Assembly (NCBI RefSeq): GCF_022844385.1 | Contig: NZ_JALHLX010000001.1 | Location: forward strand, 1 to 64,000 | Source: Hydrogenophaga sp. | Lineage (GTDB): Bacteria; Pseudomonadota; Gammaproteobacteria; Burkholderiales; Burkholderiaceae_C | Length of the DNA stretch: 64,000 nt | Direction of reading: 5' to 3' | Shown here: piece by piece, positions 43,324 to 47,034 of the stretch | Layout: every line of letters starts with the position of its first letter | How positions within the stretch are numbered: the stretch's first letter is position 1 | The notes under the pieces: generated by a model | What the model saw: only the letters and a program-made list of their open reading frames with translations | Told to the model about the DNA's origin: nothing | Database searches by the model: none | Position numbers and translations under genes: made by a program

Positions 43324-43479
43324 GGCGGTGGGAGAATGCGGGTGGTTGGATGAGGCCTCCGCAGGTCCGGCCAATGCTGGGTGCGAAGGAGGGCGATTCT
43401 ACCTGCCTGTTTTTTCAGCAGGCGATATCCGAACCCTTGCTTTCGCATTTCACACAACACCACGCGCAACGCCACACAC

Positions 43480-43503
43480 AACGCCGACCGACGGCGTTTT
43501 TTT
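43480..43503 (+). terminator. Terminator-like hairpin in the leader of the yqaA-type gene
   Basis: AACGCCG (43480-43486) and CGGCGTT (43492-43498) form a 7-bp stem with an ACCGA loop, and the last bases run into seven T's ending at 43503. The next start codon is at 43513, so this is in the leader of the downstream gene. A second AACGCC at 43468-43473 could pair with the same right arm. Confidence 0.6.
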
Positions 43504-43512
43504 CTGCTGCCC

Positions 43513-43995
43513 ATGCCCGACTGGTTCAACCACCTGATGCAACTCCTGGCCCTGCCCGAATTCGGGCTGAGCACTGTGTTCGTGGTGGCCTTCGTCTCGG
43601 CCACGCTGTTGCCCATGGGCTCGGAGCCCGCAGTGTTCGGCCTCATCAAACTCAACCCCGAATTGTTCTGGCCAGCCATCCTGGTGGCCACCGCCGGCAA
43701 CACGCTGGGCGGCGCGGTGAGCTGGGCCATGGGCCTTGGAGCACACAAGGCGGTGGACAAGGCACGCGGGCACCATGTCGATGTGCGCGCGCTGGCCTGG
43801 CTCGAGCGGTTCGGACCCAAAGCCTGCCTGCTGAGCTGGCTTCCGGTGGTGGGCGACCCGCTGTGCGCGGTGGCCGGCTGGCTCAAGTTTCCGTTCTGGC
43901 CCTGCGTGCTCTACATGGCCATCGGCAAGTTCGCGCGCTACCTCACCATGACGGCGGCGCTGCTCTGGTTCTTTCCCGGCGCCTACCAAGGATGA
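43513..43995 (+). CDS. YqaA family (SNARE-associated/DedA-like) membrane protein
   Basis: A 160-residue inner-membrane protein with several hydrophobic helices. The YqaA/DedA landmarks are visible: FVSATLLPMGSEPAVFGLI, then ILVATAGNTLGGAVSWAMGLG with the conserved GNTLG, and WLPVVGDPLCAVAGWLKFPFWPCVLYMAIGKFARY. DedA relatives act in membrane homeostasis and lipid-carrier flipping, but the role of YqaA is not known. The start lies 9 bases after a terminator-like hairpin and lacks a usual ribosome site because the T-run occupies that space. It overlaps the MFS gene by ATGA. Confidence 0.88.
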   Translation: MPDWFNHLMQLLALPEFGLSTVFVVAFVSATLLPMGSEPAVFGLIKLNPELFWPAILVATAGNTLGGAVSWAMGLGAHKAVDKARGHHVDVRALAWLERFGPKACLLSWLPVVGDPLCAVAGWLKFPFWPCVLYMAIGKFARYLTMTAALLWFFPGAYQG

Positions 43996-45176
43996 GCACC
44001 AGCACTTCGGCCCTGCCACGCGCCCTCTGGGCCTTGATGGTCGGCAACTTTGTGATCGGCACCGGCGTGATGGTGGTGCCGGGCACCCTCAACGACATCA
44101 GCCAGTCGCTGGGCGTGTCGATCCCGCAGGCGGGTCAGCTCATCACGGCAGCGGCCATCCTCATGGGCCTGGGCGCGCCGGCCTTTGCCAGCCTGGTGGC
44201 CGGCTGGGACCGCCGCCGCCTGCTCACCATCTCGCTGCTCTGGTACGGCCTGCTCACCGCCGCCTGCGCTCTCGCCCCGAGCTACGCCAGCCTGCTGCCG
44301 CTGCGCGTGCTGGCCGTCATTTCGCCCGCCGTCTTCACACCGCAGGCCGCGGCCTGCGTGGGCCTGCTGGTGCGGCCCGATCAGCGCGGACGCGCCATCA
44401 CCTTCGTGTTCCTCGGTTGGTCGGTGGCCTCGGTCATGGGCATGCCGCTGTCGGCCTGGATTGGTGGCACGCTGGGCTGGCGCTGGGCGTTTGGCCTGGT
44501 GGCGCTGATGTCGCTGGCCAGCGCGGCCTGGGTCTGGCGCGAGATGCCGGACGGCATCAAACCCGCCGCCCTGTCGCGCCAGGCCTGGCAGGCCACACTG
44601 GGTTCAGCGCCGCTCATGCTGGCCGTGGGCGTGACGCTGCTCTCTGCCTTCGGGCAGTTCACGCTGTTCTCGTACTTTGCGCCCTACTTCTTCCAGACCC
44701 TGGGTCTGGGCGGCGGCGCGCTGTCGCTCATGTTCCTGTGGTTCGGCGCCTTTGGTCTGGCGGGCAACGTGGGCATGTCGCGCTGGATCGACCGCATCGG
44801 GTCGGCGCGCGCTGTGCTCATCTCGCTCGGTCTGATCGTGCTGAGCCTGCTGCTGTGGCCACTGGGCCAGGGCGGCGTGTGGCAGCAGGCTCTGGTGCTG
44901 GTGCCATGGGCGCTGGGCTGCTTTGCGGTGAACTCGGCGCAGCAGGCGCGGCTGGTGCACATCTCACCGGCCCTGGCACCCGCCACGGTGGCGCTCAACA
45001 CCTCGGCCATGTACGGCGGTCAGGCCATGGGTGCGGCGCTGGGCGGGTTGATGATTGCGCAGGGCCGCATGCTCAGCCTCAATCAAGTGGGTCTGGCCGT
45101 GCTGGTCTTGGCCATGGCCCTGAGCGTGTGGGCCGCGCGGGCGCAGTCGGGCTCGCTGTCTCAGAAGCGTTCGTAG
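43992..45176 (+). CDS. MFS transporter
   Basis: A 394-residue major facilitator superfamily transporter with about twelve hydrophobic helices. The loop between helices 2 and 3 is AGWDRRRLLTISL, the usual MFS motif A position, and the segment GWSVASVMGMPLSAWIGGTLGWRWAF is typical of the DHA1 sugar-efflux/AraJ-like group. Substrate unknown. It begins with a 4-base overlap with the yqaA-type gene and is convergent with the RsuA-like gene; the two genes overlap by 16 bases at their 3' ends. Confidence 0.92.
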   Translation: MSTSTSALPRALWALMVGNFVIGTGVMVVPGTLNDISQSLGVSIPQAGQLITAAAILMGLGAPAFASLVAGWDRRRLLTISLLWYGLLTAACALAPSYASLLPLRVLAVISPAVFTPQAAACVGLLVRPDQRGRAITFVFLGWSVASVMGMPLSAWIGGTLGWRWAFGLVALMSLASAAWVWREMPDGIKPAALSRQAWQATLGSAPLMLAVGVTLLSAFGQFTLFSYFAPYFFQTLGLGGGALSLMFLWFGAFGLAGNVGMSRWIDRIGSARAVLISLGLIVLSLLLWPLGQGGVWQQALVLVPWALGCFAVNSAQQARLVHISPALAPATVALNTSAMYGGQAMGAALGGLMIAQGRMLSLNQVGLAVLVLAMALSVWAARAQSGSLSQKRS

Positions 45177-45934
45177 GGCAGCAGGTAACGCCACTCGCCC
45201 ACCGGCAGACCAGCCAGCGAAATGCGGCCCAGCCGCAGGCGGCGCAAGGCAGTGAGTTGCAAACCGGCGCGCTCACACAGGTGCGCCACCTGACCCGGCC
45301 GGTTGCCCTTGATGGCTAGGCGCAGGCGCAGTTCGCTCTGCCAGCTGGCGCGCGCCGAGGGCACGGCCCAGCCATCAAAGAACAGCGCCTTGCCCAAGGA
45401 TTTGAGCACCGCGTCACGCCGGGCTTCGTCTTCCAGCTCGGGATCGGCCGCCACCTCGGCCAGCCACTCGTGTTCCAGCTGACCCGCGTCGTCGGTCATC
45501 TTGCGCGCCACGCTCGGGTTTTGCGTGAACACCATCAGGCCACTGGCCTTGGTGCCCAGCGGTGACACTGGCAGCAGCTTGTGCAGGTGCGCCTTGAGCG
45601 GGCGCACGCCGGAGCGGTCGCCCTTGAAGCGGTTGCTGTTGGTGAACCACTTGGCCGCGAGTGCGTCGGGCAGCAGTGGTTCGTCGGGGAGCACGCGGTT
45701 GGCCGGCTTGTGCCAGATCAGCGTCATTGACTCCAGCGGCTCCAGCCTGGCCTTGGGGTCCAGCAGCACGGTCTGGTGGTCGCTCACCCGCTCCATGGGC
45801 TCTTCCACCACCACACCGTCCACCCGCACCCAGCCGCCGGCGATGTAGTTTTCGGCGTCGCTGCGCGAGCACGGCAGTTGTGCGGCCAGGCGTTTGGCCA
45901 GGCGCTGGGGTTCGGGCTGGCCAGTCTGGGTCAT
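45161..45934 (-). CDS. RsuA/RluF-type pseudouridine synthase homolog lacking the catalytic Asp
   Basis: A 257-residue protein with an N-terminal S4 RNA-binding domain (QRLAKRLAAQLPCSRSDAENYIAGGWVRVDG) and a RsuA/RluF-like synthase domain. The family's catalytic motif GRLDxxTxGL aligns residue for residue with SPLGTKASGL, so the essential Asp is Gly at residue 127 and the preceding Arg is Pro. The rest keeps the shape (SGLMVFTQNPSVARKM, VAHLCERAGLQLTALRRLRLGRISLAGL). It may bind rRNA without modifying it. It starts 8 bases after ychF. Confidence 0.85.
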   Translation of the reverse strand: MTQTGQPEPQRLAKRLAAQLPCSRSDAENYIAGGWVRVDGVVVEEPMERVSDHQTVLLDPKARLEPLESMTLIWHKPANRVLPDEPLLPDALAAKWFTNSNRFKGDRSGVRPLKAHLHKLLPVSPLGTKASGLMVFTQNPSVARKMTDDAGQLEHEWLAEVAADPELEDEARRDAVLKSLGKALFFDGWAVPSARASWQSELRLRLAIKGNRPGQVAHLCERAGLQLTALRRLRLGRISLAGLPVGEWRYLLPYERF

Positions 45935-45942
45935 GGTGGCGT

Positions 45943-47034
45943 TCAGCTGCTGAACAGGAAGTTCATCACGTCGCCGTCCTTGACGACGTACTCCTTGCCT
46001 TCGGCGCGCATCTTGCCGGCGTCCTTGGCGCCTTGTTCGCCCTTGAAGTTGATGAAGTCGTCAAACGCGATGGTCTGGGCACGGATGTAGCCCTTCTCGA
46101 AATCGGTGTGGATCACGCCGGCGGCCTGCGGGCCGGTGTCGCCCACGTGGATGGTCCAGGCGCGCACTTCTTTCACACCGGCGGTGAAGTAGGTCTGCAG
46201 ACCGAGCAACTGATAAGCCGCGCGGATCAGGCGGTTCAAGCCGGGCTCGTCCTGACCCAATTCCTTGAGGAATTCGAGCCGGTCGGCATCGTCCATCTCG
46301 GAGAGTTCGGCCTCGATCTTGGCGCAGATGGCGACCACGGGCGCGTTCTGTTTCGCGGCGAATTCGCGCAGGCGGTCGAGGAACGGGTTGTTCTCGAAGC
46401 CGTCTTCGGCCACGTTGGCCACGAACATGGCGGGCTTCGCCGTGATCAGGAAAAACTGCTTGAGCTGCGCCTGCTCTTCCTTGCTGAAGTCGATGGTGCG
46501 CACCGGCTGGGTGTTGTTGAGTGCGGCCTGGCACTTCTCCAGAATCGCCACCTGCTTGATGGATTCCTTGTCGCCGGAGCGCGCGGTCTTGCTCACGCGG
46601 TGCAGGGCCTTCTCCACGGCGGCGAGGTCGGCCAGACAGAGTTCGGTGAGGATGACCTCGATGTCGGCGATGGGATCGACCTTGTTGGCCACGTGGATCA
46701 CGTTGTCGTCTTCAAAACAGCGCACCACGTTGACGATGGCATCGGTCTCGCGGATGTGCGCCAGAAACTTGTTGCCCAGGCCTTCACCGGTGCTCGCGCC
46801 CGCCACCAGGCCGGCAATGTCCACAAACTCCACGATCGCCGGCACCACACGCTCGGGTTCAACGATGGCGGCCAGTTGCGCCAGCCGTGGATCGGGCACT
46901 TCCACCACGCCGGTGTTGGGCTCGATGGTGCAGAAGGGGTAGTTCTCGGCCGCGATGCCGGCTTTGGTCAGCGCGTTGAAAAGGGTGGACTTGCCCACGT
47001 TGGGCAGGCCCACGATGCCGCATTGGAGGCTCAT
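45943..47034 (-). CDS. ychF: Redox-regulated P-loop ATPase YchF (OLA1-type)
   Basis: A 363-residue Obg-family NTPase that prefers ATP and binds ribosomes; it affects translation start-site choice and stress responses. Seen: G1 [17 protein letters not shown]3 [20 protein letters not shown], a helical insertion, and the C-terminal TGS-like domain with [14 protein letters not shown] and the conserved end GFEKGYI-like [16 protein letters not shown]. The C-terminal [12 protein letters not shown] is typical. Followed after 8 bases by the RsuA-like gene, which supports a shared ribosome role. Confidence 0.97.

Follow-up and report, generated by a model that had tools for sequence, protein, structure and literature searches.

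The gene described here encodes a degenerate homologue of the RluF-type pseudouridine synthases and lies, together with ychF and an ORF for an MFS transporter, in the window, by which we mean the entire stretch of 64 000 nucleotides that was analysed (Table 1). The stop codon of ychF and the ATG of the degenerate gene are separated by 8 nt. At its other end the gene meets the MFS transporter ORF, with the 3′ ends of the two overlapping by 16 bp (window positions 45161–45176); a tail-to-tail overlap is also present at one other locus of the clade described below (L069).

Table 1. Features of the degenerate RluF-like gene and its neighbours, with window coordinates.
Feature	Position	Strand	Basis or remark
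CDS, degenerate RluF-type pseudouridine synthase homologue (P0001), 257 amino acids, ATG start	45161..45934	-	ORF, Pfam, HMMER, AlphaFold2 model, structure comparison
S4 RNA-binding domain, residues 10–53	45776..45907	-	Pfam PF01479, 27.9 bits
SPLG, residues 124–127, in place of catalytic GRLD; Gly127 for Asp	45554..45565	-	Gapless HMMER alignment to E. coli RluF
Trp157 replacing the conserved Tyr (EHEW for EKEY)	45464..45466	-	Alignment columns
Clade-specific conserved stretch, residues 197–209 (SWQSELRLRLAIK)	45308..45346	-	Ser197, Arg205 and Lys209 invariant (124/124)
PGQVAHLC, residues 213–220, for KRQIRRMC; Ala217 for the motif-III Arg	45275..45298	-	Alignment columns
ychF, directly upstream of the degenerate RluF-like gene, same strand	45943..47034	-	Adjacent to the gene in the Hydrogenophaga group only
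ORF of an MFS transporter that converges on the degenerate RluF-like gene; true start uncertain; context only	43350..45176	+	

The window protein has the architecture of RsuA, RluB, RluE and RluF, in which an S4 domain is followed by a PseudoU_synth_2 fold, as seen both in Pfam and in the predicted model. These two domains are the only Pfam matches listed for it, with PseudoU_synth_2 (PF00849) scoring 26.8 bits, exactly at the cut-off. The score against the NCBIfam model TIGR00093 (46.9 bits) is far under the cut-off of 109.3 bits, and the best NCBIfam equivalog is that of RluF (NF007784), the E. coli synthase (b4022) of Psi2604 in 23S rRNA and Psi35 in tRNA-Tyr. The closest solved structures by sequence are also those of RluF, 3dh3 (the best PDB match) and 2gml, and the C-terminal residues Trp248, Arg249, Glu255 and Phe257 are common to the window protein and the RluF-type proteins of its order. 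The protein differs from RluF in its equivalog score (41.3 bits against a curated cut-off of 318 bits), in the loss of GRLD, the Tyr and RQIRRM, and in the charge of the cleft. An AlphaFold2 model, calculated from 38 sequences (the window protein and the 37 loci of the contig scan described below), has a mean pLDDT of 89.6 and a pTM of 0.81. Foldseek and structural alignment match it to RsuA (1ksk, Z = 17.3), RluF (3dh3, Z = 17.1) and RluE (2oml, Z = 17.1, with an r.m.s.d. of 2.4 Å over 158 residues). Full-length alignments to RsuA and RluF give an r.m.s.d. of 9–11 Å because the two domains move; the synthase domain alone superimposes with 2.4–3.0 Å. The proposal in the preliminary description that the S4 domain and the synthase fold are kept is thus borne out by the Pfam scores and by the Z scores of about 17.

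The Asp, Tyr and Arg have catalytic roles in pseudouridine synthases, and we know of no pseudouridine synthase family in which the Asp is not strictly required. The window protein lacks each of three residues conserved in the RsuA family, namely the catalytic Asp, the active-site Tyr and the motif-III Arg/Lys. The HMMER alignment to E. coli RluF is gapless across SPLG/GRLD, which rules out a misplaced motif and agrees with the replacement first reported from the sequence, with Gly127 in place of the Asp and Pro125 in place of the Arg. Two further losses add to that report: the Tyr is replaced by Trp157 and the RQIRRM helix reads GQVAHL. All 30 best-match loci from the set of 60 genomes described below and all 37 contig-scan loci are without GRLD at the place of SPLG, and SPLG is therefore not a sequencing accident. 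Elsewhere in the window genome, the Asp is retained at the other eight of the nine PF00849 places, with GRLD or HRLD at seven of them and HRID at one; among the eight is a normal RluF-type paralogue on contig 186 (GRLDIDSTG; locus L109). Judged from the substitutions in the window protein, it is very unlikely that this protein still forms pseudouridine.

Homologues were collected from 60 genomes (including that of the window), from a contig scan (37 loci, mostly from Hydrogenophaga and some from Thiobacillus), from plasmid records, and from 399 genomes of the order and 398 of the phylum; the whole-genome scans stay within the phylum. After removal of identical, too-short and stop-containing ORFs (L172 was left out as short), the alignment comprised 178 sequences, E. 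coli included, of which 80 were used for a tree from which the GRLD, Tyr and helix columns had been removed. In this tree the degenerate proteins form a single clade of 49 rows with support of 100/100. Its sister group consists of three rows from family f5 (GWLD/EKEY/KRQIQEL, GRLD/EQEY/AGMIGAL and GLD/EQEY/EGVVPDL), which together with the clade make up 52 rows (support 98/84), and all 28 rows outside these two groups have GRLD. The best tree nests the clade among the RluF-type proteins of the order; an arrangement with the RluF-type rows as one separate clade is not rejected (p-AU of 0.221). For the residue counts below, the two groups were defined partly by the motif, with GRLD rows assigned to the RluF-type group and four family-f5 rows set aside, so that values of 41/41 for motif columns are circular and the absence of Asp at position 127 in 117 of 124 clade proteins is partly circular; the motif-free tree gives the same split. 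In family f5, the active site is partly degraded in the RluF-type copies L165, L168, L169 and L094, which show GWLD, GLD, or GRLD combined with a lost helix. These copies are possible intermediate steps towards the clade.

The clade spans at least 12 families of the window's order, together with Pseudomonas aeruginosa and other families of the class. A clade member is found in 33 of the 36 genomes of the window's genus, the remaining three (G021, G022 and G027) having only a weaker match, and its sequence was read in at least 54 of the 399 genomes of the order, a count that may miss weaker members. In the phylum scan, 28 of 398 genomes have a match at E ≤ 1e-42. Of the 54 carriers of the order, 51 (all but G274, G384 and G392) have a second match at E ≤ 1e-20, not in every case read as sequence. 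The class also includes 19 carrier genomes that lie outside the order; in these the best match after the clade member reaches only 1.9e-10, and five of the 19 have no second match at 1e-6. The clade member was fetched from 17 of them (all except G701 and G723). These 19 genomes, from families f55, f57 and f66, have no strong RluF-type match other than the clade member; RluF may be missing from them, or the clade member may have been acquired by transfer and have taken the place of RluF. The P. aeruginosa member (L212), which may correspond to locus PA1110, is annotated as 'rRNA pseudouridine synthase' and was found in a plasmid record (NZ_CP131792.1, 378083–390784), an entry of 846,886 bp that is called a conjugative plasmid of P. 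aeruginosa. It is adjoined there by hcuABC, roeA and fliIJ, presumably chromosomal genes from their appearance, so that the record may hold a chromosome segment.

Within the clade the catalytic positions have drifted. The 124 distinct clade proteins carry ten different residues at position 127 (Glu in 51, Gly in 26, Ala in ten, Gln in eight, Asp in seven, Pro in seven, Ser in five, His in four, Thr in three and Val in three), which rules out that Gly is fixed in the group, a question raised in the preliminary description. Position 125 is Pro in 102 of these proteins and Arg in three, and position 157 is Trp in 50, Tyr in 47, Val in nine, Phe in eight, Ile in five, Cys in three and Leu in two. 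The motif-III Arg/Lys at position 217 occurs in 14 of the 124, compared with all four of the E. coli enzymes used for comparison. Counted strictly, 73 proteins have none of Asp, Tyr and Arg/Lys at 217, and three (L184 and L197, from two genomes of the class, and L212, from P. aeruginosa) have the complete set. Enzyme activity may persist in these three, in which case the clade would hold both kinds, and 'pseudoenzyme' is consequently not a fit label for every member. Over 49 non-redundant members, the entropy of the Asp column is 2.63 bits (75th percentile of columns) and that of the two helix Arg columns is 2.99 and 3.24 bits (90th and 98th percentiles); at least five changes between Asp and non-Asp and at least 22 letter changes at the Asp site are counted inside the 49-row clade. 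Seven other residues (Glu154, Glu156, Ser197, Arg205, Lys209, Arg232 and Arg234) are invariant in all 124 proteins, and for two of them, Ser197 and Lys209, the RluF-type proteins are variable.

A basic cleft has become an acidic one. At position 160 there is Glu or Asp in 115 of the 124 clade proteins versus Arg in 41 of 41 RluF-type proteins, and position 155 is His or Gln in 121 of 124 versus Lys in 41 of 41. From the RluF-type group (20 rows) to the clade (49 rows), the net charge of strand 154–161 falls from +0.1 to −2.9, that of helix 209–221 from +3.4 to +0.9, that of the S4 region (residues 8–66) from +1.7 to −2.0 and that of the whole synthase part from +7.2 to +6.0; the C-terminal part (residues 225–257) is slightly more basic in the clade (+5.2 versus +4.1). 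The S4 signature residues Arg11, Ser23, Arg24, Gly34 and Gly40 are kept and, with the Arg-rich C-terminal strand, suggest that the ligand would be RNA. The more acidic cleft would point to a changed partner; RNA binding may be weak or altered owing to the positive charge lost in the cleft and the S4 region, a loss that speaks against RNA simply being gripped as it is by RluF. The change of the cleft from basic to acidic is also one ground for the leading alternative, in which the protein is non-catalytic and not centred on RNA, the altered cleft binding a protein or ligand, so that it would, for example, regulate YchF or the active RluF, or compete for the RluF substrate as a dominant negative. 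A second ground is the tight linkage to ychF, which adjoins the clade gene in 43 of 50 rows of the Hydrogenophaga group (the window's genus, Hydrogenophaga and related named records). However, none of the 72 other clade rows for which 600 bp or more of upstream sequence is available has ychF as a neighbour (the flank being too short in two further rows), and the kept S4 signature again favours RNA; we therefore consider this alternative unlikely. Since the linkage is local to the Hydrogenophaga group, it should carry little weight for function: the adjacency to ychF noted in the preliminary description is real in the window but fails as a functional clue. The same counts rule out a ychF-linked ribosome factor whose linkage is kept throughout the family.

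Another acidic residue might have taken over from the Asp, leaving the protein a pseudouridine synthase. The candidate is position 148, which is Asp in 72 and Glu in 42 of the 124 clade proteins (114 in all) and Gly in 40 of the 41 RluF-type proteins, and which could in principle replace the Asp, as could Glu127 in many relatives; the three members with a complete Asp/Tyr/Arg set also lend this some weight. A catalytic Asp would not be expected to vary, however, and position 148 alternates between Asp and Glu while position 127 holds any of ten residues; in the window protein the Tyr and Arg are gone as well. Continued synthase activity by this route is thus improbable.

The gene is maintained. 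By the Nei–Gojobori method, the median dN/dS is 0.074 among close relatives (eight orthologues, 28 pairs) and 0.226 in a broader set (18 orthologues, 153 pairs); the corresponding values for ychF, used as a control, are 0.054 (eight sequences, 28 pairs) and 0.067 (15 sequences, 105 pairs). The invariant sites and a median dN/dS of 0.07–0.23 both indicate that the gene is kept, and the low dN/dS rules out a pseudogene. That the gene is decaying and on its way out is highly improbable: it is patchy, being missing in three of 36 genomes of the window's genus (the window genome counted among the 36), and its broader dN/dS is more than three times that of ychF, but the value among close relatives is low, residues are invariant throughout the clade and no internal stop occurs in the strong matches listed from the 60-genome, order and phylum scans.

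The reading that we favour, and regard as probable, is that the window protein, related to RluF, retains the scaffold of that enzyme but no longer its catalysis, and that it acts as an RNA chaperone or ribosome-assembly factor. It is homologous to an enzyme family, an essential catalytic residue is lost, and dN/dS and the invariant residues show that it is kept by selection. Of the earlier suggestion of a ribosome-binding pseudoenzyme, it is the pseudoenzyme part that holds, given the replacement of the Asp, Tyr and motif-III Arg and the purifying selection; binding to the ribosome stays a proposal. Binding would be to an RluF-type hairpin, either in the peptidyl-transferase region of the pre-50S rRNA or in a tRNA anticodon arm, and would involve the S4 domain together with the Arg-rich strand retained at the C-terminus. 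The hairpin would be held or opened without being modified, giving the protein its role as a chaperone or assembly factor. In Burkholderiales the non-catalytic protein would work in cells that also have an active RluF; this part of the proposal fails in the class genomes outside the order, given the weak or missing second matches there. More broadly, and only tentatively, the clade might be a widespread bacterial family in its own right, annotated as rRNA pseudouridine synthase, whose members gave up catalysis several times over in independent events while the protein stayed under selection, and which comprises non-catalytic RNA chaperones or ribosome-assembly factors selected for binding and not for pseudouridine; we would put this somewhat short of even.

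Several known proteins resemble such a factor. Deletion of truB can be rescued with TruB that is catalytically inactive, and TruB acts as a chaperone of tRNA (PMC11301382 and PMC12503941). TruB is thus a case in which the scaffold of a pseudouridine synthase has a function on RNA that is independent of catalysis and contributes to fitness, but it is an active enzyme of another family, and the evidence for this function comes from an inactive mutant (PMC11301382). By analogy with TruB, the nearest model for the window protein would be a catalysis-free RNA chaperone or assembly factor. Human RPUSD3, a synthase homologue, matters for the large mitoribosomal subunit; no activity on rRNA is reported for it, and activity on other RNAs is (PMC8067846). 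In Trypanosoma brucei, mt-LAF3 would, going by a paper's title, be a synthase homologue that takes part in mitoribosome formation, on the large subunit. Unlike the window protein, RPUSD3 and mt-LAF3 are eukaryotic. Within the RsuA family itself, RluB is found on a 50S particle in PDB entry 9cl9, whose title ('WT 12C IM fraction ... with RluB bound') points to an assembly intermediate formed in the cold; GRLD is present in E. coli RluB, whereas the window protein is without it. Among the open-licence papers searched, we found no description of the degenerate RluF-like clade.

The loss of single-site rRNA pseudouridine synthases often has little effect, and why bacteria keep them is an old question. 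One answer is that selection acts on binding by the protein and not on the modification. This idea can be tested directly on a natural clade such as this one, with repeated drift of the active site and invariance at other sites. For entries of the clade that are named 'rRNA pseudouridine synthase', as the P. aeruginosa member is, activity should not be assumed.

The flanking ORFs were also clustered (2068 ORFs, many of them shadow frames), and each of the 25 clusters listed is limited to three families at most once the Hydrogenophaga group is left aside. Among these 25, the cluster with the most loci outside that group is a small ORF that is VF530-like, a name given by resemblance only, with seven loci in families f15, f25 and f50; at these loci it lies upstream of the clade gene on the opposite strand. 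A gene of the VF530 family is also located near the P. aeruginosa clade member.
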